A DNA stretch of 63,671 nucleotides from Oscillospiraceae bacterium (GTDB taxonomy: Bacteria > Bacillota > Clostridia > Oscillospirales > Ruminococcaceae): NCBI GenBank assembly GCA_017408395.1, contig JAFQUQ010000031.1, forward strand, positions 1-63,671, read 5' to 3'. Shown here one piece after another: positions 24,777 through 59,757 of the stretch (its first letter is position 1; each line of letters begins with the position of its first letter). The notes beneath the pieces are model-generated. The model was not told the DNA's origin. It saw only the letters and a program-made list of their open reading frames with translations, and ran no database searches. Made by a program: the position numbers and the translations under genes.

Positions 24777-27700
24777 TTATGCAAGGAAATTAAGTGCGGA
24801 AGAGTAGTGCTCACGTACCTTAGGTGCAAGATTTTGCTGAGTCTGCATAAGTATCTGATGCTTTGCAAGCTCTGCGGTGTAATCTGCAATTTTAGCGTCA
24901 CGGAGTCTGGACTCTGATGCGGTGAGATTTTCAATCTGGGTCTGATTGCGTGAAAGAGCGTGGACGGAACGATTTTCGTTTGCGCCTGAAAGCGCTCTTT
25001 CCGTGGTAAGGTATTTGTTTGCGTATTCAAGGCGGTCGATGGCCTTGAGTGCTCTTTCAACGGTAGTAACGCCCGTTGTATTGATACGCATAAGATGTTC
25101 ATCAAGACGGGTCTTCTGGAAGACGATGTAGCTGTCGGTGCGGCGGCCTGTATGGATGCCGATTTCGCCGTCGTTGTCACGTCCTGTTATGCCGTAGAAA
25201 AGGTCGTTTGCGGCATTGCCTGTGATGTAGTCGAATTTATAGTCGCCGTTCTTGGTTGTGTAGAACATCAGGTGACCTTCTCTTTCGGCTACACGGACAA
25301 GGGAGTCGTCAGCTTCAAAAATGCCGTTCATTGTTTCAATAAGCTCAGGAAGTTCATAGCTGTCGCTTGGAATTGTCATTGAGTACGGCTCTTCATTAAG
25401 CTCAAAACCAAAGGTGTTGTTTTCTTCGGTGATGGTTATACCGTCGGAAAGGTCGGGCTTGCCGATGATAGTGGTAGGCTCAGGTGAGCGTGTTGCGTCG
25501 TAGAAAATCTTATATGCAGAGTTTCCTCTTACGCCGTCGATGATAGCGTCGATGACCTGATTTGTACCGTCATCGGGGAGTCTGCACCAGAGAACAAGCT
25601 TGTCTGAGCTTGAAATACCCGTGTTGTTTTCGGTAACGCCGAGTTCTCCGAGACCGATTGAAGCGTTGAAGAAGTCTTCGGGGAAATGATTGCCGTTGTT
25701 GTCCACGAGCTTTGCAATTTCTGCACGTCCGCCCTTTTCAACCGCTTCGGCGATTTCCTGAGGAGTGTAATTTCCTGCGGGGATAGTAAAGTCGATTGTG
25801 TGGGTCTGACCGTTATAGTGAAGGTCGAAGACAACGTTGTCGTTTAAGCCTGTGTAGATGATGGCATTGACGCCGTATTTCTTTTCGTCCTCGGTGGTAG
25901 GCTCCATATTGTTTCTGCCTACGATATAGGAAACCGAGCCGCCTTTCGATGTACCTGCCTTTTCCGAATGTAATCTTACGGAATAGAAGTCAGGGTCCTG
26001 GAAAACGTGGTCAAAGAGGCCGCCGTCAAAGTTGCGGATGTAGCGTGAATTTGAAGCGGTAGCACCCTTTATGGTGATTTTTCCTGCGGATGATGCTGTA
26101 ACGACAAGCTGGTCAGGACCGACAGCATTGTCGATCTGCTCCTGAATAGCTGCTGCAAGCTCAGCCGCAGTATAAGTTTTAGGCTGAACGGTAACGTTGA
26201 TGGTTGCGTTTACACCGTTTACGCCGCCGAATTCAAAGGACATGGTGTTGAAATAATCCTTGATTTCGATACCGTTGACATTATTCTGACCTGTGATATA
26301 GCAGCGTGTATCCACCCTTGTTTTTGTGGTAGGGTCTGCAACGGAATATGCACGGCTGAAAACAGGAGAGGTGTTTGCGGATGAAAGACTGATTTTCTTG
26401 TCGTTGCCGCCGTCGTTGGTTTCGATGTTGAGGGTGTTGCCCGAAAGTGAGATGGTAACGCCTGCCGAAGCAAAGCCTGCCTGGAGCTGGCTTAAAATGT
26501 CAGCTCTGCCGGAAGAGCCTGAATAATTGCCTTCCGTAAGGTCGAATGAGTATTCTGTACCGTTTATTTTAAGGGCAACGGTCTTGTTTGCGGAGGTGAT
26601 TTCCATGCCGCCTGTTGAAGCGTCGAAAAGTCCGCCGAAATTGCTGTTGTAAGCGGTTGCAGGGTAGAGCACCTTGTTTGCGTCAGGGTCAATGGTGCCG
26701 CTTGCACCGGGGTTGGTGGTTTTCTTTACCTGGTCAAACTTTGCAGTGCCGCCGAAATTGCTTAAATTGTAGCCGTTACCGCCGTTTACGGTTTCAAAAA
26801 CAAGTCCCTTGTTACTGCCGCTGGGATTATAGCTTGCCTTGATTTTTCCGCTTAAATTGCTGTCGTTGTCGATAACGTCCTGGATGGTCTGTGCCATCTG
26901 GGAAGGGGAGGAGTATGTTCCGTCGGGAATTGTTATAGTGAGAGTCTCTGTGCCCGAAGGAGAGGTATAGTCCATTGTGATGGTGTTGTTTGATGAGTCG
27001 ATTACGAGAGGCTCGTTGAAGTGTGATGCAAATTCCTGCGCTCTGACAGTAGCAGGGGCTTCAACATTGCCTGTTGCAGGGTCATAATAAGGGTCGGAGG
27101 GGCTTACTTCCACCTTTGTCTTGCCGATAAGGCAGGTGCTTGAATCGCTGATGGAAATGCTTCCGCCTTCCTTTGCAGGGCCTGTGAAGATGAGGGATTT
27201 TCCGTCACTTCCAACTTCTACCGTGGTTTTTGCCGTACCGCCGTCTGCGGCTGCGATTTTTGAATTAAGCTCTGCTGCAATTTCGGAAAGAGAGGTATAG
27301 GTTTTGTTTGTGATTTTAAAGTCGTAGGTCTTGCTTCCTGAGGTGAAAACGAAACGGTTTGTGGAATTGTCAGCGATGTAAGGAATCTGTGAAAGAGCGT
27401 TCTTTACGGTAAGCTTTGACGGGGTGTAAACCATATTGTTGGTTTCGTCAATGACAGCCTCGGAGTCGTTTGCAAGGGAATTTTTGGTTGCCGAGCGTAA
27501 AAGAGAGCCGTCCTTGGCGGTGATTGAAACACCGTCACCCTTTTCAACGGTTGCGATTACAAGGTTGTTGCCGTTTGCTACTGCCGCAGCGTAAGGCTTT
27601 ATCTGGTCGTTGATAAGGAGTATAGCTTCGGTAGATGTCTTTCCCGCAGGAATGTTTATGCTGAGATTTTTTACGCCGTCAGCACCCTGCACGGAAAATT

Positions 27701-29891
27701 CAAAGGTTACAGGCTGGAGGGATTTTCCTGCCGCTGTAAACTGAGTCATTACATTTTTAAGAGTAAGTGTGGCAGGGGTGTAGATGAAGCTGTTTTCGTC
27801 AACCTCGGATTCAGCGTCGCCTGTGTAAATTGTGGTACCGTCGGTTGCAGTGACTGCTACATTGTCGCTGTAAGTGATATATTTTCCGCTTTTGCCTGTT
27901 GAAAGGGATGTATCGTCGAAATAGCGGACGCCCTGAGTTGTTCTGCCGGCGGTGGTTGTAACGTTGTTGCCGCCTGCGGAGGTAGTGCCTGAATAGCTTA
28001 TGTATTCGGTGGCGCTGCCCTGCATTGCGCTGAAGCTGTTTGCGTAGTATCTGCCGCCGATAAGTCTGTTGTAGGCGGTAGAATTGGCTTTGTTTGCCTT
28101 TATGGTGTAAATATCTGCGCCGTCCAGACCCTTTGCTGAAAGGGAGAGTGTGTTTCCCACAGAGAATTCAAGCTTTGAAGCCAGATCGGGATAATTTGCC
28201 GCAAGCTGATCGTTAAGCACGGTCTGGAGCTGTGCAGGAGTATAGTCATTTTTAGCCGGGATCGTAAAGGTTATGGTCTGCTTTGAAGATGTTGTACCGT
28301 CTCTTACGTCAATTTCAAAAGCAAGGGTATTTTCGCCGTCAGGAACAGCGAAAGATGAGCCGAGGGTCTTCTTTGCGGAAAGAGAAGCCGCCGCATAGTT
28401 TGACGGTGAATTTGACGGCTTTACAACATCAAGGGTTGCAGCGTCAAAGTAGTCGTAAACCATATATTTGCTGGGGACATCGGTTTTGTTGAGCTTAATG
28501 GAGCAGTTGTGACCGTACTGGTCGGAAGTTATGACAAGGTTTCCGCTGTTGTTTATTTCTGCCTTGAAGGGCAGGTCGCCAAGTGTGCTGTTGATTTTTG
28601 CAACAAGCTCATCGGATGTACAGCTTTTTAAATTTTCGCCGTCGTCAAGAAGGTCAAATCTTACGGTGGTGGTCACTTTTTCAGCGTCATCGCCGTAATA
28701 TGAGAGGTCAAGGATAAAGTATTCGTTTCTGCCTCTTTCGATCTCAACAGGAGAGCCGACAAGCTTTGTGCCTGTAAGAACGGACTGGGTATTGTTGTTG
28801 TAGCCGTACATGCTTATATCGTAAATAGGAGAATGGATACCGTCCATTTTGATGAAGTTACCTGCAAGACCTGTGATAGCTTCGGTGCTGGCAAGACCGA
28901 TAATACCCCTGCCCTCATTGTTTGTTTCGGGAACAGCCTGCACGTCATCTGCAAGTCCTGCTTCTTCAAGCTTGTCGTTGATATGCTGGATAAGCTGAGG
29001 GCGGCTGTACCAGCCCGGTTCAAGAGTGATGGAATGGAGGGTATCGTCATCGTTGCCGAGACGGAAGGACATTACATCGTTTGCTCCTGTAATTACTTCC
29101 ATAGGCACAGTATCATTGCTGAATGAGGTTACGCCGAGAAGGTGTCCTTCTGCGGAGCCGATATTTGTTTCGTAAAAAAGGCTTGCGCCCGTACCGCCGA
29201 TAAAATCAAGACGTCCGGGTTCTGTCTGCATTGTAAACTGCTTGTCGGGATTCATTCCGATGATAAGGTTGGGAGCTTCCTTGTAAAGGATAGAGTCTAT
29301 ATAATCGGCAAGAGCCTCTGCGGGATGATATTTGCCGTGAGGGATTTTTACAGTGTGGACCTTTGAATTGCCGTCGAGGGTGTAGCCGATACGGAGAGTA
29401 TCGTTGTTTCCGTCGATGATCACGGATTCGCCGTGGCTTACAACGCCTTCGCCTGCGCCGTAGGATTCGAGGTGTTTTTCGAAGAGAGGAATACCGTTGA
29501 AATCGGAAGTATCGGTAATATGGCCTATTTCGTCAAGGAGCTGCTGATATTCACAGTCGAGTGCGGCTCTGTCTATGCTGTCGTCGTAAGTGCCGTTTGC
29601 AGCCTGCACAGCAATGGATTTGAGCCTGTGTATCATATTGTTGATTTCCTGGGAAGCACCGTCAACGGAGCGCACGTAGCTTATACCGTCGTTGATGTTG
29701 TCCACGCCCTGTTCAAGGCCGCAGAGGACGGTACGCATTTTTTCGGATATAGCAAGAGAAGCCGCATCGTCTGCAGCTCTGTTTACACGGTAGCCCGAAG
29801 AAAGCTTTTCAAGGGATTTCTGAAGGCTGTTTCCAGTTTTTTTGCTCTTGTTATTCAAATAATCCGCCAGCGGCATATTTCCGATAACCAT
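24777..29891 (-). CDS. giant flagellin with repeated flagellin-IN-like domains
   Basis: A 1704-residue flagellin, several times the usual 270-550. I start at ATG 29891 (MVIGNMPLADYLNNK), just after GGAAGAGGAG; an in-frame ATG at 29921 would lie upstream of that site and beside the predicted transcription start. Residues 1-140 are a standard D0/D1 domain (EKLSSGYRVNRAADDAASLA, NINDGISYVRSVDGA, TDTSDFNG). About residues 1600-1704 form the matching C-terminal D1/D0 helices. Between them lie about eleven related beta-rich units containing variants of (I/F)TIPxGxYT...(I/L)xxxINxx, the pattern of flagellin hook-IN domains, for example at about 190, 290, 545, 745, 985, 1120, 1235, 1370 and 1505. Cys occurs at several places, unusual for flagellin. 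A perfect sigma-28 promoter drives it. No other flagellar gene is in the window. Confidence 0.9.
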   Translation of the reverse strand: MVIGNMPLADYLNNKSKKTGNSLQKSLEKLSSGYRVNRAADDAASLAISEKMRTVLCGLEQGVDNINDGISYVRSVDGASQEINNMIHRLKSIAVQAANGTYDDSIDRAALDCEYQQLLDEIGHITDTSDFNGIPLFEKHLESYGAGEGVVSHGESVIIDGNNDTLRIGYTLDGNSKVHTVKIPHGKYHPAEALADYIDSILYKEAPNLIIGMNPDKQFTMQTEPGRLDFIGGTGASLFYETNIGSAEGHLLGVTSFSNDTVPMEVITGANDVMSFRLGNDDDTLHSITLEPGWYSRPQLIQHINDKLEEAGLADDVQAVPETNNEGRGIIGLASTEAITGLAGNFIKMDGIHSPIYDISMYGYNNNTQSVLTGTKLVGSPVEIERGRNEYFILDLSYYGDDAEKVTTTVRFDLLDDGENLKSCTSDELVAKINSTLGDLPFKAEINNSGNLVITSDQYGHNCSIKLNKTDVPSKYMVYDYFDAATLDVVKPSNSPSNYAAASLSAKKTLGSSFAVPDGENTLAFEIDVRDGTTSSKQTITFTIPAKNDYTPAQLQTVLNDQLAANYPDLASKLEFSVGNTLSLSAKGLDGADIYTIKANKANSTAYNRLIGGRYYANSFSAMQGSATEYISYSGTTSAGGNNVTTTAGRTTQGVRYFDDTSLSTGKSGKYITYSDNVAVTATDGTTIYTGDAESEVDENSFIYTPATLTLKNVMTQFTAAGKSLQPVTFEFSVQGADGVKNLSINIPAGKTSTEAILLINDQIKPYAAAVANGNNLVIATVEKGDGVSITAKDGSLLRSATKNSLANDSEAVIDETNNMVYTPSKLTVKNALSQIPYIADNSTNRFVFTSGSKTYDFKITNKTYTSLSEIAAELNSKIAAADGGTAKTTVEVGSDGKSLIFTGPAKEGGSISISDSSTCLIGKTKVEVSPSDPYYDPATGNVEAPATVRAQEFASHFNEPLVIDSSNNTITMDYTSPSGTETLTITIPDGTYSSPSQMAQTIQDVIDNDSNLSGKIKASYNPSGSNKGLVFETVNGGNGYNLSNFGGTAKFDQVKKTTNPGASGTIDPDANKVLYPATAYNSNFGGLFDASTGGMEITSANKTVALKINGTEYSFDLTEGNYSGSSGRADILSQLQAGFASAGVTISLSGNTLNIETNDGGNDKKISLSSANTSPVFSRAYSVADPTTKTRVDTRCYITGQNNVNGIEIKDYFNTMSFEFGGVNGVNATINVTVQPKTYTAAELAAAIQEQIDNAVGPDQLVVTASSAGKITIKGATASNSRYIRNFDGGLFDHVFQDPDFYSVRLHSEKAGTSKGGSVSYIVGRNNMEPTTEDEKKYGVNAIIYTGLNDNVVFDLHYNGQTHTIDFTIPAGNYTPQEIAEAVEKGGRAEIAKLVDNNGNHFPEDFFNASIGLGELGVTENNTGISSSDKLVLWCRLPDDGTNQVIDAIIDGVRGNSAYKIFYDATRSPEPTTIIGKPDLSDGITITEENNTFGFELNEEPYSMTIPSDSYELPELIETMNGIFEADDSLVRVAEREGHLMFYTTKNGDYKFDYITGNAANDLFYGITGRDNDGEIGIHTGRRTDSYIVFQKTRLDEHLMRINTTGVTTVERALKAIDRLEYANKYLTTERALSGANENRSVHALSRNQTQIENLTASESRLRDAKIADYTAELAKHQILMQTQQNLAPKVREHYSSALNFLA

Positions 29892-29930
29892 AAAACTCCT
29901 CTTCCTTTTTAAAAATTTCATCTGTTTAAA

Positions 29931-29957
29931 ATATCGGCAAAAAAATACAAATCTTTA
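29931..29957 (-). promoter_or_regulatory. sigma-28 (SigD/FliA) promoter of the giant flagellin
   Basis: On the minus strand TAAA (29954-29957) is followed by exactly 15 bases and GCCGATAT (29931-29938), an exact match to the sigma-28 consensus. The predicted start, near 29923, gives a leader of about 30 nt. Confidence 0.9.
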
Positions 29958-50928: not shown

Positions 50929-53121
50929 GTGAAAAAGAGATTTATTATGAGAATTGCTTCTCTTGCGGCTGTATGTGCAATTTTTACGGGTACGGTTTCA
51001 ATGCCTGCAATTAAGATACACGCTGATACAATAACATCCGCCGAGGCAAAATCGGGTCTTAAGGATGCGCTTGCGGCGGCAAAGAGAATAAGCGTCCCCG
51101 AACATCTTACGGAATTCGGTTACACGGCTCACAAAGCCTATTCGACGATATGCTATGTTTTCACCTGGACAACGCCGTCGAATGCAGAAAAATACGAAGA
51201 ATATATCATTTCCGTTTCTGACGGGAATATTGTTTATTTTTATAAGAATAATGATGAGAAAAAGGATGTCCGTTCATTTGCAAAGCTTTCCGAAGCGGAG
51301 CTTCTTTCAAAGGCAAAGGAGTATATGAAAAAGCTTAATCCCGACCTTTACAGAAAGGGAGTTTACAGCATATCGGGCATAAAGCTTTTCGGAAGCAACG
51401 CACAGGTAGAGTTTCAGCGTAAGGAAAACGGCTTTGAAGTAAACAGAAACGGTGCACGGATCGAGCTTGATAAAAATACGGGAGAGCTGCTTGAATATGA
51501 AATGTCCTGGTGGAATGACGCTGAGTTCAAATCTGCCGAAAAGGCGTTGTCACAAGAAAAGCTTAAGGAGAGCATAAAAAAGCTGTGTAAGCTTACACCT
51601 GTGTACTATATAAATAATGATTACAGCACAGGCAAGGTTTACGCTTCATACGTCTATACCCCCGAATACACAGGAGAGGTTGACGCAGTAACGGGAAAAG
51701 CATCGTCCATATGGTCTGATATGGCGGCTGAAAAGGGCACTGCACACTCCCCCACGGACTATGATTTCAGCGGAAATGACCGCCTTGAAGATACAGAAGC
51801 AGGGGTTGACGGAGGCGGTACAGTTAATTACACCGAAGCAGAGCTGAAGGAAATCGAAAAGGAAAAGAGCCTGCTTTCCACGGATAAAATAACCGCTATG
51901 CTTAAAAAGGACAAGTATGTTGACCTTTACGAAAAGGCGGAGCTTAAAGAATATAAGCTGGTTAAAAACAACGACACGGGAGAGTATTTCTACAAGCTTT
52001 CCTACACAAGCGGAAACGGCAATTTAATGAAGGGGTTGTGGCTTGTTGACGAGCAGGAGGATGTCGTTTACGAGGAAAGCTGCGACGAGAACGGCAATGT
52101 TATCGCCAATGCCACAAACTATTCCGCATATGTATTTGTAAATGCCCTGACGGGCAAGGTCGAGGATTACAGCCGAAGCTGTGAGGACAGCAGTTACAGC
52201 GGAAGCTACCCCACAGCCGAAAATCTGAAAATCGCAAAATCCGCTTTAAAGCATTTCTGCCCCGACACCTGCGGCGAGTTTAAATCAATTGCCGCAAACA
52301 ATCCCGACCCGAAAGCGGAAGAAACGGGAGCGTTCAGAATGTACGAATTCCAGCGCTACAAAAATGGCGTAAAGGTTATCGGAGATACGGTGACGGTGAA
52401 CATTTCCGCAAAGGGCGAGGTCACTTATTTCAACTGTAATTACACCGATGCAGAGTTCCCCGAAGCGCAGAAGCTGGATGAAGAAAAAGCTTACGAGAGC
52501 CTGTTCAGACAGCTTGACCTGTCTGTTTACTATGACGGTTGGTATAAACCTGACGGCACGGTAAAATCATATCTGGTCTGCAAAATTGACAGCTTTAAAT
52601 TAAACAAGGACTATAAGCTGTGCAATTCAAAAGGTACTGCGGTAACGCCTGCAATTTACAGAAGCACTGATTATTCCGACATAGACGGTCATAAAAATGA
52701 AGCCGCAATACGTACCCTTGTAAAATACGGTGTAACGCTTGAATGTGAAAACGGCAGATTTGACCCTGACAGTACTCTTACCGACGTTGAGTTTGCTGAA
52801 ATCGCACATCAGGTAACAAAAATAACCCGTCCTTACGCAATAAAGGACAGTGCCGCAAAATCAAAGGCGCTGACTCTTACAAAGGCTCTTGCGGCAAAGG
52901 TGCTTGTAAGTGCAATGGGACTTGAGGAAGCCGCAAAGCTTAAGGGCATCTACAAATCCCCGTACAGCGATGTAAAGGAGAATGACGAATATATCGGCTG
53001 TATCTCAATCGCAAAGGCAATGGGCATATTCAAAAGCGGCGGTAAGTTTGAGCCTGACAGGAAGCTTACAAGAGGCGAAGCTATGCAGCTGATTTACGAC
53101 TATATCACAGCTTTAAGTTGA
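50929..53121 (+). CDS. secreted YcdB/YcdC-domain protein with SLH motifs (paralog 1)
   Basis: A 730-residue extracellular protein. Start GTG 50929 follows GAAGGGAG; an ATG at 50927 is followed at once by a stop. The signal peptide spans about residues 1-32. Two YcdB/YcdC-type (PepSY-like propeptide) regions follow, at about 90-270 (AELLSKAKEYMKKLNPDLYR) and 395-560 (ESLFRQLDLSVYYDGWYKPDG). Two SLH motifs end the protein (YSDIDGHKNEAAIRTLVKYG; YSDVKENDEYIGCISIAKAMG) and should bind cell-wall polymer. Two SLH motifs are fewer than the usual three. It shares an 83-base identical block with paralog 2. No catalytic residues seen. Confidence 0.82.
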   Translation: MKKRFIMRIASLAAVCAIFTGTVSMPAIKIHADTITSAEAKSGLKDALAAAKRISVPEHLTEFGYTAHKAYSTICYVFTWTTPSNAEKYEEYIISVSDGNIVYFYKNNDEKKDVRSFAKLSEAELLSKAKEYMKKLNPDLYRKGVYSISGIKLFGSNAQVEFQRKENGFEVNRNGARIELDKNTGELLEYEMSWWNDAEFKSAEKALSQEKLKESIKKLCKLTPVYYINNDYSTGKVYASYVYTPEYTGEVDAVTGKASSIWSDMAAEKGTAHSPTDYDFSGNDRLEDTEAGVDGGGTVNYTEAELKEIEKEKSLLSTDKITAMLKKDKYVDLYEKAELKEYKLVKNNDTGEYFYKLSYTSGNGNLMKGLWLVDEQEDVVYEESCDENGNVIANATNYSAYVFVNALTGKVEDYSRSCEDSSYSGSYPTAENLKIAKSALKHFCPDTCGEFKSIAANNPDPKAEETGAFRMYEFQRYKNGVKVIGDTVTVNISAKGEVTYFNCNYTDAEFPEAQKLDEEKAYESLFRQLDLSVYYDGWYKPDGTVKSYLVCKIDSFKLNKDYKLCNSKGTAVTPAIYRSTDYSDIDGHKNEAAIRTLVKYGVTLECENGRFDPDSTLTDVEFAEIAHQVTKITRPYAIKDSAAKSKALTLTKALAAKVLVSAMGLEEAAKLKGIYKSPYSDVKENDEYIGCISIAKAMGIFKSGGKFEPDRKLTRGEAMQLIYDYITALS

Positions 53122-53139
53122 CAGGAAAGGTTGATCACA

Positions 53140-55308
53140 ATGAAAAAGAATTTATTGGCAAAGGCAGTATCACTTGCAATGGCGTGCACAATGCTGACGG
53201 GTACCGTGATAAGTACGGCTGTCACCGTTTATGCAGACACGTTATCAGGTTATTCGCTGGAACAAGGTGACGAGAGGATGAAAGCGGCTGTTGAAGAGGT
53301 AAAAAAGAGGGTAAACATCACGCCGCAATTATCGGAATTCTACTGGGAATCAACGAATAAATACAAGTCTATGTTTAAATCAGAATATGAAGACGATGCC
53401 TACTGGTTCCGTTGGGCGACTCCCGATGACGCAGATATTCCAGAAGAAATATCCATGCTGTTTGCGGATGATATGATTGTAATGTATGAAAGCTCCGACA
53501 ATGAGGATGATCACTGGAAAAGTTCACTTGCGAAGCTTAGTGCGGATCAGCTTCTTTCAAAGGCAAAGGAGCATATGAAAAAGCTTAATCCCGATATTTA
53601 CGATGAGGGTGTTTACAGTATTGCGGAAATGGAGCTTTCAGGCTATGAAGTTCAGATTAAATTTGAGCGCAGAGTCAACGGAATTCCTGTTCCGGAAAAC
53701 TGGGCGGAGATCCATATGAGCAAAAACACGGGAAAATTGCTTTTTATGCGTTTAAACTGGTGGAAAAACGCCGAATTCCAATCTCCTGATACAAAGCTTA
53801 CAGAAGCCGAAGCGATAGAAAGATTCAAGGAGCTTTGTAAACTTGAAAAAAGTCATTACTCGGTAGGCTCCGAGTCAGCAAAAAATAATCTTTTTGCAAG
53901 GCTTATATACAAACCGAGCTTTAATTCCCTCATTGACGCATTTACAGGAGAAATATCCTATTTCTGGGAAGAATGCTTAAAAAAAGGCGGCGTTGCCTTA
54001 CCTGATTTTCAATGGTTTTATGTAATGAACTATCAGAAAGGAGACGGTGTGGCAGACATTGAGGATCCTGATGATAGCTACAGCGACGAGCTTACAAGAA
54101 TAGATTATGAGACCTTTGAAGGAAAAGAAGAGTTTCTGACTGTTGAGCAGATAACCGACCTTCTCCGCAAGGATAAGTATATAAAGCTTTCCCACAAGGC
54201 GGAGCTTTATGAGGACAGGATTGAGCTTTTCCGCAACGAGAGAACGGGGGAATATATTTATTCACTATATTATAGATCGCCTTACTATGAGGTGGATGTT
54301 GATGTTAATGCACATACGGGCAGGATAGAATTTTTCAGCAGAAAAAACTTGAAAACCGATTATGATAAGACAAAACTGTATCCGAAAAAGTCAAATTATA
54401 AGCTGGCAAAAGAAATTATCAAGCAGATGTACCCCGATATCTACAGCCAATTTATCCCAGATGAAAAATGCACAAGCCCTGTTGAGTCGTGGGAAGAAGA
54501 CGGTGTAATTTACTATGACACAACTCACTACTATTATTTTGAGCGTTATGTAAATGATACCAGGATGAAAAATGATTACATAGGCATAAGAATAAGCAAC
54601 ACAGGTGATATTCTGCATATAAGCTATAATTATACCGACGCAAAATTCCAGACAGCAGGTGAATTTGACGAGGATAAGGCTATCGACAGCCTGTTCAGAC
54701 AGCAGGAAATGGAGTTATATTACGACGGTTGGCGTATGCCTGACGGCTCTGTAAAAACCAATCTTGTTTACAGCACCGATAAGTTTTATATGGATGCGGA
54801 TTATAAACTCTGCGGACATTGGGGCAATATTGACAAAAAGAATCTGTTTAAAACTGATTATACCGATATTAAAGGCAGTAAATATGAAAATGCGATCCGT
54901 AAGCTTGCAGACCACGGTATTATCCTTGAAAGCAAAAACGGCAGATTTGAGCCGGACAGAATAATTACCGACCTTGAATTTTCCGCAGTTGTTTACAAAG
55001 CGATGAAAAGCTATGTTCCGACTGAAATAAGCAATGCCATGAAGGAGAATAAAGGTCAGGCGCTCACAAAAGCGTATGCCGCAAATGTTCTGATAAATCT
55101 GCAGGACGGCAAAGAATATGCAGAACTGGATATTTACAGTTCACCATACAGTGATGTGCCCGCAGACCATCAATATGCAGGCTGTATCTCAATCGCAAAG
55201 GCAATGGGCATATTCAAAAGCGGCGGTAAGTTTGAGCCTGACAGGAAGCTTACAAGAGGCGAGGCTATGCAGCTGATTTACGATTATATAAAAATAGTAA
55301 CCGTATAA
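53140..55308 (+). CDS. secreted YcdB/YcdC-domain protein with SLH motifs (paralog 2)
   Basis: A 722-residue paralog, 18 bases after paralog 1. I start at ATG 53140 (MKKNLLAKAVSLAMACTMLT); the frame extends to 53131. Layout as in paralog 1: signal peptide, two YcdB/YcdC-type regions, two SLH motifs. Its N-terminal signal region is nearly the same as in paralog 3, whereas the last 100 bases are nearly the same as in paralog 1, so it looks like a recombined copy. Confidence 0.82.
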   Translation: MKKNLLAKAVSLAMACTMLTGTVISTAVTVYADTLSGYSLEQGDERMKAAVEEVKKRVNITPQLSEFYWESTNKYKSMFKSEYEDDAYWFRWATPDDADIPEEISMLFADDMIVMYESSDNEDDHWKSSLAKLSADQLLSKAKEHMKKLNPDIYDEGVYSIAEMELSGYEVQIKFERRVNGIPVPENWAEIHMSKNTGKLLFMRLNWWKNAEFQSPDTKLTEAEAIERFKELCKLEKSHYSVGSESAKNNLFARLIYKPSFNSLIDAFTGEISYFWEECLKKGGVALPDFQWFYVMNYQKGDGVADIEDPDDSYSDELTRIDYETFEGKEEFLTVEQITDLLRKDKYIKLSHKAELYEDRIELFRNERTGEYIYSLYYRSPYYEVDVDVNAHTGRIEFFSRKNLKTDYDKTKLYPKKSNYKLAKEIIKQMYPDIYSQFIPDEKCTSPVESWEEDGVIYYDTTHYYYFERYVNDTRMKNDYIGIRISNTGDILHISYNYTDAKFQTAGEFDEDKAIDSLFRQQEMELYYDGWRMPDGSVKTNLVYSTDKFYMDADYKLCGHWGNIDKKNLFKTDYTDIKGSKYENAIRKLADHGIILESKNGRFEPDRIITDLEFSAVVYKAMKSYVPTEISNAMKENKGQALTKAYAANVLINLQDGKEYAELDIYSSPYSDVPADHQYAGCISIAKAMGIFKSGGKFEPDRKLTRGEAMQLIYDYIKIVTV

Positions 55309-55325
55309 AGAAAGGATGATCACAT

Positions 55326-57491
55326 ATGAAAAAACGAACTCTTATAAGAATAGCGTCACTCGCAATGGCGTGCACAATGCTGACAGGTGCCGTAATGAGC
55401 ACGGCTGTCACAGCGGTTGCCAAGACATCGGCATCATCGGAAAGTGCAAAGGAAGCAGCAATGAAAACGGCGCTTACCAAGGTTAAAAAGAGGGTGTCCG
55501 TTCCGACCCACGTTTCCGAATTCAAATACAGCGTACACAATGAAATCAGCAGCAATTGCTTTACATTTACATGGGAAACTCCCGATACCGCAAAAATCCG
55601 TGAGCGTATCGTCGTTCAGATAGTTGGGGACATTATCATTTCCTACCGTCACAACATCTATGATGACGCAGAAACAAAGCAGTCCTTTGCAAAGCTTACC
55701 GACGAACAGCTTCTTTCAAAGGCAAAGGAGCACCTTAAACAGCTTAATCCCGAAATTTACAGGGACGGAGTTTACAGCATCTCAAACATAAGCCTTTTCG
55801 GAACAAACGCAACGGTTTATTTCCAGCGCAAGGTTGACGGTATCGCTGTTGACAGCAACGGCGCAAGCGTTTCTCTTGACAAGGACACAGGCAAGCTTAT
55901 TTCCTGCAATATTGAATGGTGGGATAATGCAGAATTTCCGTCAGACGATACAAAGCTTACCGAAGCGGAAGCAATAGAAAGCTTCAAGAAGCTCTGCACG
56001 CTTACCCCAGCTTACACAATAAGCTACGATTATGAAAACGACAAGCAGGTTGCACGACTTGTGTACCGTCCCGACTTTACTGCTGAAATTGACGCATTTA
56101 CAGGCAAAAAATCAACAATCTGGGATGATATGCACAAGGAAAAGGGTATAAGCTACTCGCCTTTCGGAAGCTTCGGTGCAATTACCGAGGACGCAGTTGC
56201 CGAAGAGGACTGTGAAGAGGTAACAATGGAAGCAGGCGTAAACTTCACAGAAGCCGAGCTTAAGGAGATCGAAGCCGACAAGAGCCTTCTTACAAAGGAT
56301 AAGATCAAGGAAATGCTTGTGAAGGACAAATACATAAAGCTTGACAGCAATGCAGAGCTTGAAAGCTCCAATCTTCACAAGGAAGAGGACACCGAAGAAT
56401 ATTTCTATATGCTCTATTACAAGATTGACAGAGATGCAGAAAAGCTTATGGGCGGCTATGCAAATATTTATTTAAACGCCAAGACAGGCGAGGTTGAATG
56501 GTTCAACAAGGGCGATTATTATAATGAGTACGACAGCACAAAGGCTTATCCTGTTGAGGAAAATCTCAAAACCGCAAAGGAAGTCATCAAATATTTCTAC
56601 GGCGACATCAGCGGCGGATACAAGTCACATCCCGACAACAAAAGACCTGCCGAGTACTGGGAAGTAAGCGAAGACGGCAAGGTAAAGAATTACGAAATCG
56701 AGCGTACCTATACCTTCAACCGCTATGTAAACGACGTTATCGTTGAAGGCGATACTATCAGAGTGAACATCGACAACAAGGGCAACATAAACAGTATCAG
56801 CTACAACCACACCGATGTTACATTCCCGACCGCACCTAAGTTTGACAAGGACAAGGCTTTCGAGTCCCTTTTCAGACAGCAGGAAATGAAGCTTTACTAT
56901 GACGGCTGGTATAAGCCTGACGGCTCCGTTAAAACCTACCTTATCTACGATACAGCTTCCTTTACCTTAAACAGAAGCTACAAGCTCTGCCGCTATGACG
57001 GCTCAGCAATTACCGAAAAGGCAGAAACAAGCACAGCCTACACCGACATCAAGGGCAATAAGTACGAAAAAGCAATAACAACTCTTGCAAGATACAACAT
57101 AACCCTTGACTGTGAAAACAGAAAATTCAACCCCGACGGCGAAATTACCGACCTTGAATTCTCCGCACTTGTTTACAAGGCTATGCAGAATTATGTTCCT
57201 TACACAATAAATGAGGCAAAGAAAGAAAACAAGGGAGTTGTCCTTACAAGAGCACTTGCCGCAAAGGCGTTTGTAACAGCAGCAGGCGGCGAGGAATTTG
57301 CAAAGCTTAAGGGAATTTACGCTTCGCCTTACAGCGACGTATCCGCTAAGCACGAATATGTGGGCTACATTGCAATCGCAAAGGCAATGGGACTGATTGA
57401 CCCGACCTTAAAGAAGTATTCTCCTGACAGCAAGGTTACAAGAGGCGAGGCTATGCAGTTCATTTACGATTACATTTTAAGATTAAGCTAA
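55326..57491 (+). CDS. secreted YcdB/YcdC-domain protein with SLH motifs (paralog 3)
   Basis: A 721-residue paralog, 17 bases after paralog 2, with an AAAGGATG site. Layout: signal peptide (about 1-33), two YcdB/YcdC-type regions, and two SLH motifs (YTDIKGNKYEKAITTLARYN; YSDVSAKHEYVGYIAIAKAMG). Unlike paralogs 1 and 2 its last SLH motif reads LIDPTLKKYSPDSKVTRGE. A strong terminator ends the three-gene unit. Confidence 0.82.
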   Translation: MKKRTLIRIASLAMACTMLTGAVMSTAVTAVAKTSASSESAKEAAMKTALTKVKKRVSVPTHVSEFKYSVHNEISSNCFTFTWETPDTAKIRERIVVQIVGDIIISYRHNIYDDAETKQSFAKLTDEQLLSKAKEHLKQLNPEIYRDGVYSISNISLFGTNATVYFQRKVDGIAVDSNGASVSLDKDTGKLISCNIEWWDNAEFPSDDTKLTEAEAIESFKKLCTLTPAYTISYDYENDKQVARLVYRPDFTAEIDAFTGKKSTIWDDMHKEKGISYSPFGSFGAITEDAVAEEDCEEVTMEAGVNFTEAELKEIEADKSLLTKDKIKEMLVKDKYIKLDSNAELESSNLHKEEDTEEYFYMLYYKIDRDAEKLMGGYANIYLNAKTGEVEWFNKGDYYNEYDSTKAYPVEENLKTAKEVIKYFYGDISGGYKSHPDNKRPAEYWEVSEDGKVKNYEIERTYTFNRYVNDVIVEGDTIRVNIDNKGNINSISYNHTDVTFPTAPKFDKDKAFESLFRQQEMKLYYDGWYKPDGSVKTYLIYDTASFTLNRSYKLCRYDGSAITEKAETSTAYTDIKGNKYEKAITTLARYNITLDCENRKFNPDGEITDLEFSALVYKAMQNYVPYTINEAKKENKGVVLTRALAAKAFVTAAGGEEFAKLKGIYASPYSDVSAKHEYVGYIAIAKAMGLIDPTLKKYSPDSKVTRGEAMQFIYDYILRLS

Positions 57492-57496
57492 AATCT

Positions 57497-57549
57497 GCAC
57501 CGCACACAACGGATTTTCCTTTCCTTTGTGTGCGGTGCGTTTATTTTTC
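57497..57549 (+). terminator. terminator of the YcdB-SLH operon
   Basis: GCACCGCACACAA (57497-57509) pairs with TTGTGTGCGGTGC (57526-57538), followed by GTTTATTTTT. Confidence 0.85.
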
Positions 57550-57578
57550 TTGACTTTACGGTACGGGCATAATATAAT
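57550..57578 (+). promoter_or_regulatory. promoter of ppk1
   Basis: TTGACT (57550-57555), 17 bases, TATAAT (57573-57578). Confidence 0.75.
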
Positions 57579-57618
57579 TAAAATAAGATGTATTTACTTC
57601 CAAGGGAGGTTTGGATTT

Positions 57619-59757
57619 ATGATAAAATATTACGACAACAGAGAATTGTCCTGGCTTAAATTCAATGAACGTGTACTTGAAGAAGCAATGGACATGGATG
57701 TGCCCCTTTGTGAAAGACTGCTTTTTGCGTCGATTTTTCAGTCAAATCTCGATGAGTTCTTTATGGTGCGTGTAGGCTCTCTTTACGACCAGACTCTTGT
57801 AGGAAATGAAAAGGAAAACAAAACGGGTATGACCTGTTCACAGCAGCTTGACGCTATCTTTAAACGCTGTGCAGAGCTGGTGCCTGTCCGTGACGGAGCT
57901 TACAGCGGAATAATGAAGGAGCTTCAGGAGAAGTACGGCATTGAGCAGGTGGATTTCCGTGCTTTGTCCGATGACGAGGAAAATTTTCTCAAAACCTACT
58001 TCAAGCAGGAGATACTGCCCCTTATTTCACCTCAGGTAATCGACAAGCGTCACCCGTTCCCATTCCTTAAAAATAAGGAGATATACGCTGTTGCACACCT
58101 TGAATCAAAGCAATCGGTGAAGCTTGGAATTATTCCGTCAAGCGGCTCATTTTCAAGAGTGATTTTCCTGCCTACGGAAAACCGTATCAGGTTTATGCTT
58201 GCGGAAGAGCTTATCCTGCATTACCTGCCGCTGGTTTTCAGCAATTATAAGATACTCTGCAAGTCCATAATGCGTGTCACAAGAAATGCGGATATAAATA
58301 TGGAGGAGGCTCTTTACGATCACGATGTGGATTTCAGAGAGATAATGTCCGACCTTCTCCGCAAGAGAAAGAAGCTGTCCCCTGTCCGTCTTGAGCTGAC
58401 CCGTAAGCTTGACGAAACAACAACAGCATTTCTCTGCGAGCACCTTGAGCTTAAACCTACGCAGATTTTCTGTCATAATGCTCCTCTCGACCTTTCCTTT
58501 GTGTTTACATTAAGAGGAAAGCTTGAGGATACCGACCCTGTGCTTTTCTACCGCAGGGCTGACCCGAGAAATTCCGCAGAGGTCATTCACGATATGCCTA
58601 TGCTTCCCCAGATCAGAAAGCGTGATATTCTGCTTTCCTATCCTTACGAAAGCATAAAGCCTTTCCTGCGTATGCTTAACGAAGCGGCAGAAGACCCCGA
58701 CGTTGTTTCAATCAAGATTACGCTTTATCGTGTAGCTTCAAACTCAAAGGTAGTAGAAGCTCTTATAAACGCCGCTGAAAACGGCAAGGATGTACTCGTG
58801 CTTGTTGAGCTGAGAGCACGTTTTGACGAGGAAAACAATATCGGCTGGTCAAAGCGTCTTGAACACGCAGGCTGCAGCGTTATTTACGGTCCCGAAAGCC
58901 TTAAGGTACATTCAAAGCTGTGTCTTATCACACGCAAGCAGGGCAATAAGGTAGAGCACATCACACAGATAGGTACGGGCAATTACAACGAAAAGACCTC
59001 CGCACTTTATACCGACCTGTGCCTTATGACGGCAAACGAGGATATTGCAAAGGAAGCAAACGACGTTTTCAATGCCCTTTCAATGAATACCCTTGTTGAA
59101 AATTCAAAGCACCTGCTTGTTGCGCCTTTAAGCTTGCAGAACAAGATAATAAGGCTTATTGACCGTGAGATAGAAAAGGCTGAAAACGGCGAGTACGGCT
59201 ACATCGGCTTAAAGCTTAACTCCCTTACGGACAAGGTGCTTATTGATAAGCTTGTGGAGGCTTCAAGAAAAGGCGTAAAGATCCAGATGGTTATCAGGGG
59301 AATATGCTGTCTTGTTGCCGGAATACCGGGTGATACCGAAAACATTGAGGTAATAAGCATTGTGGGACGTTACCTTGAACACGCAAGAATTTATATGTTC
59401 GGCAGGGGCGAGGATATGAAGCTTTACATTTCCTCCGCCGACTTTATGACAAGAAACACCATCCGCCGTGTAGAGGTTGCCGCACCTGTTTACGACAGCC
59501 ACGTCCGTGAACGCATAGTGCATATTTTTGATACAATGCTCAATGATAATGTAAAGGCAAGAGTAATGCAGCCCGACAGCACCTATTCACACAGACACCC
59601 TGCCGAAAATGAAGAGCCGCTTGATTCACAGGCATATTTTATCGCAAAGGCATACAGTGACTGCTCAAAGAAGCCGCCTGCCGCTGTAAATGAAAAGCCT
59701 GCACCCAAGGCTGTAAAGGTAAGACCGAAGCCTGTAAAAAAACAGAAGAGGTCTTAA
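57619..59757 (+). CDS. ppk1: polyphosphate kinase
   Basis: PPK1 (712 residues) makes polyphosphate from ATP. I start at ATG 57619 (MIKYYDNRELSWLKFNERVLEEA), after AAGGGAGGT; the frame extends to 57526 across the promoter. N-terminal ELSWLxFNxRVLxEA, the SNLDEFFMVRVG segment, the phosphorylated His in HSKLCLI, and TGNYNEKTSALYTD are diagnostic. The C-terminal 40 residues are Pro/Lys-rich (PKAVKVRPKPVKKQKRS), an unusual basic tail. The gene stands alone with its own promoter. Confidence 0.94.
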   Translation: MIKYYDNRELSWLKFNERVLEEAMDMDVPLCERLLFASIFQSNLDEFFMVRVGSLYDQTLVGNEKENKTGMTCSQQLDAIFKRCAELVPVRDGAYSGIMKELQEKYGIEQVDFRALSDDEENFLKTYFKQEILPLISPQVIDKRHPFPFLKNKEIYAVAHLESKQSVKLGIIPSSGSFSRVIFLPTENRIRFMLAEELILHYLPLVFSNYKILCKSIMRVTRNADINMEEALYDHDVDFREIMSDLLRKRKKLSPVRLELTRKLDETTTAFLCEHLELKPTQIFCHNAPLDLSFVFTLRGKLEDTDPVLFYRRADPRNSAEVIHDMPMLPQIRKRDILLSYPYESIKPFLRMLNEAAEDPDVVSIKITLYRVASNSKVVEALINAAENGKDVLVLVELRARFDEENNIGWSKRLEHAGCSVIYGPESLKVHSKLCLITRKQGNKVEHITQIGTGNYNEKTSALYTDLCLMTANEDIAKEANDVFNALSMNTLVENSKHLLVAPLSLQNKIIRLIDREIEKAENGEYGYIGLKLNSLTDKVLIDKLVEASRKGVKIQMVIRGICCLVAGIPGDTENIEVISIVGRYLEHARIYMFGRGEDMKLYISSADFMTRNTIRRVEVAAPVYDSHVRERIVHIFDTMLNDNVKARVMQPDSTYSHRHPAENEEPLDSQAYFIAKAYSDCSKKPPAAVNEKPAPKAVKVRPKPVKKQKRS

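Follow-up and report, generated by a model that had tools for sequence, protein, structure and literature searches.

A giant flagellin with an array of eleven outer-domain-like units in Ruminococcus-related Clostridia, a possible accessory subunit of the flagellar filament

We analyzed a window of 63 671 nucleotides (the whole of contig JAFQUQ010000031.1, assembly GCA_017408395.1, from an Oscillospiraceae bacterium of the Ruminococcus-related Clostridia), whose minus strand encodes a giant flagellin with eleven repeated, outer-domain-like units between its flagellin ends. Below, P0001 denotes this giant flagellin, G000 its source genome, and other G numbers the relatives. With moderate confidence, we interpret P0001 as an accessory flagellin that is co-expressed with an ordinary one, is of low abundance and bears a long surface arm, for which a role in adhesion is possible. 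Giant flagellins are already known (Thomson et al. 2018); new here are the type of unit, its count, fixed at eleven across genera, the proposed accessory role and an apparent spread from host to host. Size, domain number and domain order are preserved from genus to genus although the gene seems mobile, and it stands beside an ordinary flagellin, so that the question of why giant flagellins exist becomes testable in one organism holding both kinds.

A flagellin with an expanded central region

The frame from 29891 to 24777 is translated into 1704 amino acids (aa) without an internal stop. Flagellin_N matched residues 13–139 (E = 3.1e-32, 112 bits, Pfam cut-off 26.6) and Flagellin_C residues 1619–1703 (E = 6e-9, 36.5 bits, cut-off 23), and both families were present in all five full-length giants that we found. 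These results bear out the original prediction of a giant flagellin of this length. At about three times the usual flagellin size, with a subunit of 183 kDa, P0001 lies well above the 1000 aa that, together with an expanded central region, mark a giant flagellin. The top NCBIfam score was that of a flagellin model (136.9 bits), compared with 71.6 bits for FlgL (TIGR02550), and none of the 23 models listed for P0001 attained its own cut-off. A FlgL or other hook-associated identity was ruled out, because these scores favor flagellin and a separate FlgL-like open reading frame (ORF) adjoins FlgK; judged by its sequence, P0001 is a flagellin, nearer to flagellins than to FlgL. A ribosome-binding-like stretch lies upstream of the start codon at 29891. 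An in-frame ATG at 29921, which would give an ORF of 1714 aa, falls where transcription is expected to begin and is probably not the codon used.

To delineate the central region, we iterated a hidden Markov model (HMM) started from unit 7 alone, which converged on 11 units in P0001 and on 55 units across the five full-length giants (11 each). Among 105 controls, shuffled or reversed, the final HMM had no match at E < 0.01 (best 0.055), and no units emerged when the iteration was repeated on reversed sequences. The E-values of the units are not independent, because the HMM was trained on those same units. In a non-iterated comparison by hhalign, 46 of 110 ordered unit pairs exceeded 50% probability, whereas none of the 110 did so once the columns had been shuffled (maximum 6.1). 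Pairwise hhalign linked unit 3 to no other unit (maximum 14); its predicted strand–helix order and its fold match grouped it with the others. The prediction of about eleven flagellin-IN-like units in roughly 1430 residues thus agrees with what we found, the region between the ends being residues 153–1588, with the reservation that the Pfam family Flagellin_IN (PF07196) itself stayed below its cut-off of 22.7 everywhere (14.4 bits in P0001, 18 in G232 and 22.2, E = 1.6e-4, in G154) and was absent from the Pfam lists of the G005 and G135 giants. The features are as follows.

24777..29891, minus strand: giant flagellin gene, 1704 aa plus stop codon (ORF translation, Pfam)
29932..29957, minus strand: sigma-28-type promoter TAAAG-N14-GCCGATA, matched exactly nowhere else in the window and in none of 100 shuffles
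29436..29891, minus strand: D0/D1 N-terminal part, residues 1–152 (Flagellin_N)
29220..29450, minus strand: unit 1, residues 148–224 (iterated HMM)
28920..29099, minus strand: unit 2, residues 265–324 (iterated HMM, fold match)
28491..28754, minus strand: unit 3, residues 380–467 (iterated HMM and fold, no pairwise hhalign link)
28095..28358, minus strand: unit 4, residues 512–599 (iterated HMM, fold match)
27777..28016, minus strand: linker between units 4 and 5, residues 626–705 (least conserved part, low confidence in the structure model)
27516..27770, minus strand: unit 5, residues 708–792 (iterated HMM, fold match; the corresponding unit of G154 has the sub-threshold Flagellin_IN match)
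27144..27416, minus strand: unit 6, residues 826–916 (iterated HMM, fold match)
26757..27047, minus strand: unit 7, residues 949–1045 (iterated HMM, fold match)
26385..26627, minus strand: unit 8, residues 1089–1169 (iterated HMM)
26031..26288, minus strand: unit 9, residues 1202–1287 (iterated HMM, fold match)
25719..25868, minus strand: unit 10, residues 1342–1391 (iterated HMM)
25467..25694, minus strand: extension of unit 10, residues 1400–1475 (its stretch 1401–1440 is the most conserved 40-residue block, 75% invariant)
25239..25445, minus strand: unit 11, residues 1483–1551 (iterated HMM, fold match)
24780..25127, minus strand: D1/D0 C-terminal part, residues 1589–1704 (Flagellin_C)

In predicted fold, eight units aligned with outer domains of FliD, FlgK or flagellin, two strongly and six weakly; units 1, 8 and 10 have no row in the fold-match lists, which is list absence only and not counter-evidence. 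The modeled units thus appear to have an outer-domain fold of the FliD/flagellin-D2 type, strongly matched for two of them and weakly for six. The AlphaFold models, built from 6 and 7 sequences, were weak overall (mean predicted local distance difference test scores, pLDDT, of 50.2 and 58.4; predicted template modeling score 0.25), and we used them for single-unit geometry only, since the shape of the arm cannot be read from them. Among the closest known proteins, FliD (HAP2), with D2/D3, and FlgK, with its outer domain, have few such domains and are cap or junction proteins, whereas P0001 is a flagellin with eleven. The sheathed flagellins FlaA–FlaD of Vibrio cholerae were matched at their D2 domain in chains of 376–379 aa, with one stretch each (about 172–269).

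We further analyzed the possibility, raised by the original prediction, that the central region carries enzymatic or binding functions. Between residues 140 and 1610, no Pfam family exceeded its cut-off in any of the five giants, and no enzymatic domain of the giant did so in Pfam, NCBIfam or PHROGs; among the sub-threshold Pfam rows were Pullulanase X25 (E = 0.036, G005) and Secretin_N (E = 9e-4, G154). A functional domain in the variable region of a flagellin is a trait of flagellinolysins, which carry a metallopeptidase there (PMC5595980, PMC7643111); the motif HExxH and any peptidase family are absent from all five giants, which are therefore not flagellinolysins by this criterion. The suggestion of an enzymatic function found no support in these searches; a function in binding is possible.

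Conservation of the array

Using the middle part as query, we found matches in 8 of 396 genomes of the family, of which two were short and partial and six contained the whole eleven-unit array (G000, G005, G002, G135, G154 and G232, that is, six species of three genera). The search for the same architecture in related genomes that had been proposed as a check was thus positive. A separate scan found matches in the named records JALEJQ01 (Oscillospiraceae bacterium SUG65), CAMJES01 (uncultured Ruminococcus) and CAMCPM01 (uncultured Clostridia). The five full-length giants are colinear and 1689–1704 aa long, and the sixth array, that of G002, is divided over two contigs. Because the eleven units occur in the same order across six species and three genera, the expansion is old, as had been surmised, as one of two possibilities, from the divergence of the units.

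When 394 genomes of the order were searched with the unit profile, 11 matched. In the ten besides G000 the match was a single short motif, located in ORFs of 418–638 aa in nine cases and in a 2471-aa ORF in the tenth. Among 960 ORFs at the examined loci, E = 0.01 was reached, beyond the giants and G380, only by L068/L094, which are FliD-like with three unit-profile matches, and by L016 (E = 0.001). The two partial matches in the family are an 848-aa protein of G244 with three unit-profile matches, which looks FliD-like judged by its ends, and a 997-aa flagellin of G380 (L093). The latter resembles the giants in its flagellin ends and unit type, and differs in having six units and no cysteine, and only a short part of it matches the array profile of the giants. 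By its size, it is a possible intermediate.

The proportion of residues invariant in the five giants was 57% in the D0/D1 N-terminal part and 48% in the C-terminal part, 52–56% in units 1, 2, 10 and 11, 31–40% in units 3–9 and 20% in the linker. Conserved base units and less conserved middle units fit an arm that runs out and back, with its base making conserved contacts. Cysteines at residues 113, 463, 920, 1197 and 1436 of P0001 are invariant in all five giants; among 22 further flagellin-like ORFs from the family and the order, counted from stop to stop and excluding the six-unit protein of G380, 12 contain no cysteine.

Ordinary flagellins and the abundance of the giant

We next consider whether the giant is the main protein of the filament. 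The first Flagellin_N searches returned it as the only such protein besides the FlgL-type one in G000, G005 and G002, and so suggested that it is the sole flagellin of these genomes. If this were the case, the giant would be the major filament protein and would build a uniformly thick filament. Such filaments exist: in Thomson et al. (2018, PMC6248924), the giant flagellins of the Oceanospirillales Bermanella marisrubri (1020 aa) and Oleibacter marinus (1190 aa) are described as the only flagellin, with filaments of at least 30 nm, and the legend of Figure 1 indicates that Firmicutes giant flagellins also exist, for example in Eubacterium plexicaudatum. By that description, these proteins share with P0001 a length above 1000 aa, flagellin ends and a long central insert of duplicated domains; they have two DE regions and a DX insert, whereas P0001 has 1704 aa, eleven short FliD/flagellin-D2-like units and an ordinary flagellin beside it.

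The single-flagellin picture is, however, an assembly artefact. The gene adjoining the ordinary flagellin of G004 led us to a G005 contig ending inside an ordinary flagellin, and we then searched with the ordinary flagellin as query, at an E limit of 10. Contig C45 of G000 (48 202 bases) stops inside an ordinary flagellin, of which the last 31 codons are present (E = 2e-10); over 30 residues, identity to the G004 ordinary flagellin is 100%. Two contig ends of G005 carry 19 residues that are 100% identical to an ordinary flagellin (E = 0.005 each, weak alone), and next to one of them stands the gene pair that is also found beside the ordinary flagellin in G004. Two contig ends of G003 likewise lie inside an ordinary flagellin (E = 0.02), and G002 has an internal ordinary-flagellin fragment of 63 residues (73% identity, E = 8e-22). 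In G135, G154 and G232, Flagellin_N detected an ordinary flagellin that is whole or nearly so. To judge from these sequences, an ordinary flagellin is present in all six giant-bearing genomes, be it complete, truncated or fragmentary, with the thinnest evidence for G002. We accordingly abandoned both the giant as sole flagellin of G000, G005 and G002 and a mutual exclusion of giant and ordinary flagellins inside the genus. Because ordinary flagellins break at shared 3΄ ends, the appearance of a sole flagellin in these assemblies can be artefactual; the contigs that end in the last 19–31 codons of ordinary flagellins are C6 and C65 of G005, C10 and C32 of G003 and C45 of G000 (L128, L129, L121, L125 and L124, respectively), and several flagellin copies with a common 3΄ end seem to break these assemblies. 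L072 carries on its minus strand, upstream of the G135 gene for the ordinary flagellin, a short divergent reading frame (41 codons) with an ordinary flagellin-like beginning, perhaps a gene remnant or a damaged copy.

Codon use also differs between the two kinds of gene. Codon adaptation was 0.333–0.523 for the five giants, 0.653–0.700 for four ordinary flagellins and 0.666 for a fifth (G001), excluding the 41-codon ORF of G135 (0.378); an FlgK value that seemed to be out of frame was likewise set aside. Within the same genome, the values for giant and ordinary flagellin were 0.418 and 0.699 in G135, 0.333 and 0.653 in G232, and 0.345 and 0.677 in G154, in which the ordinary gene is truncated by a contig end. 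The giants are nearer to FlhA (0.303–0.443, six genomes) than to ordinary flagellins, and FliD lies at 0.505–0.650 (three genomes). This low adaptation points to a minor component. Together with the ordinary flagellins, it makes the giant unlikely to be the major filament protein, and the very thick filament surface envisaged by the original prediction lacks support in that form, as an ordinary flagellin lies at the end of C45 of G000 and the giants as a group are closer to FlhA in codon adaptation. A crude solid-cylinder estimate gives about 24.5 nm for a filament of giant subunits as compared with 13 nm for Salmonella FliC.

Promoters and flagellar machinery

Upstream of the giant gene lies TAAAG-N14-GCCGATA, which we take to be a sigma-28-type site from its match to the consensus. 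A site of this type was present in all five giants (three exact, two with one mismatch), starting 66–87 bases before the start codon. We also scanned seven other flagellin starts (ordinary genes, the short divergent copy of G135, and G025) and found an exact site in four and a single mismatch in two, at 205–262 bases upstream, and none for the short G135 copy. The 997-aa flagellin of G380 has no such site within one mismatch. The flagellar and chemotaxis operon of G000 is on a separate contig, C15, where nine ORFs have Pfam support (a sigma-70-type factor, FlgM, MotA, MotB, an FlgE-type protein, FliF, FlgK, FliD and CheA). We read the sigma-70-type factor as a putative sigma-28, and the other names on this contig, including FliS-, FliW- and CsrA-like ORFs adjoining FliD, are likewise readings of the sequence. 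The giant gene is thus isolated from other flagellar genes, as described originally, in a genome that does contain export, hook and motor genes.

These results bear on the possibility that the giant serves under conditions different from those of the ordinary flagellin and assembles, unmixed with it, into a second and thick kind of filament. The D0/D1 ends of the giants form a separate clade on a long branch (1.05), and have unusual termini, so that the two kinds of flagellin may not copolymerize well; the different promoter distances (66–87 versus 205–262 bases) may also mean different post-transcriptional control. However, both gene types have sigma-28-type sites, and a single set of flagellar genes was seen, FlhA being found in all nine genomes examined, as one copy in eight and as two pieces in the fragmented G002. 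We consider a second filament type quite improbable. Little credence can be given to the further idea that the giant is exported by the flagellar system and acts mainly as a secreted or cell-surface adhesin instead of a filament subunit, against which both D0/D1 ends are conserved.

We return to the accessory flagellin as the favored interpretation, in which sigma-28 transcription, export, assembly, low abundance and the adhesive role are steps that we infer. Sigma-28 would transcribe the giant gene together with that of the ordinary flagellin, and the flagellar type III system would export the protein, unfolded, through the channel. Through its own D0/D1 it would then polymerize into the filament, either at scattered positions or in a short segment, and each copy would leave an arm of eleven small FliD/flagellin-D2-like beta domains outside the filament, most likely for contact with surfaces or polysaccharides and for local stiffening or thickening, and not for a uniformly thick filament. 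Two-flagellin filaments in which one kind is more abundant near the motor are described for Shewanella putrefaciens (PMC6299084).

Several points weigh against this interpretation. The ordinary flagellin of G000 is known only from its last 31 codons, and no ligand- or sugar-binding family exceeded its cut-off in the giant. The codon reference consisted of 19 window ORFs taken as ribosomal genes and was applied to all genomes, and recent transfer can likewise give low codon adaptation. Moreover, the codon argument is weakest for P0001, because it is the best adapted giant of the five (0.523) and exceeds the median of 38 long window ORFs (0.422).

More speculatively, and only as a tentative proposal, the giant could be a second filament subunit that is dedicated to adhesion and exchanged horizontally, with an arm of eleven domains, constant in number and order across genera, for binding polysaccharides of plants or mucus. 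If it is true, part of the flagellum would be an anchoring or substrate-finding device in fiber-degrading Clostridia.

History and possible transfer

A tree built from the D0/D1 parts of 28 flagellins united all five giants in a single clade (100/100), separate from the ordinary flagellins that G135, G232, G004 and G001 encode; the flagellin of G380 was a weak sister to the giants (86/73, long branch). In the tree of the giants themselves, G005, which belongs to the genus of the window, joined G135 of another genus (100/100, 87% identity), and the grouping of G000 with G005 was rejected (approximately unbiased test, P = 1e-6), with the caution that G000 has a long branch. P0001 is 54–56% identical to the four other full-length giants and 51% and 61% identical to the two G002 pieces. 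In the FlhA tree, on the other hand, the genus stays together (85/87), and the grouping of G005 with G135 was rejected (P = 0.005). This conflict suggests horizontal spread; as far as the sequences go, either horizontal transfer or the loss of old copies in different lineages could account for it.

We also examined possible vehicles. A phage origin was rejected, as none of 7 pattern matches among viral contigs was confirmed and the middle part had no match in phages; PHROG matches outside the flagellin ends were at residues 1098–1147 (E = 1.4e-5, unknown function) and, weakly, 296–317 (E = 0.28). Plasmid carriage was rejected as well, since none of the 181 matching plasmid records covered 80% of the query, the eight rows listed having 8–14% coverage, mostly of the N-terminal end.

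Neighboring genes

The giant gene of the window stands alone; a GtrA-family protein is encoded by one of its neighbors, and another neighbor matched no Pfam family. When neighboring ORFs longer than 100 aa were compared, only GH5-type and regulator-type similarities were common to different hosts. Among the four genomes whose neighbors were scanned (G000, G005, G002 and G135), a GH5 cellulase adjoins the giant gene in G005, G002 and G135 (L034:18776–19999, L033:2–1639 and L090:6208–7164); the giant of G000 has no GH5 neighbor, with the GtrA protein on that side. The GH5 of G135 shares only 22% identity with those of G005 and has no significant similarity to that of G002, and a functional partnership with the giant is at most hinted at.

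Elsewhere in the window, three proteins of 721–730 aa are encoded in tandem at 50929–57488. They contain DUF4901 (YcdB/YcdC repeat) as well as S-layer homology domains, and the gene for a polyphosphate kinase comes next (57526–59757).
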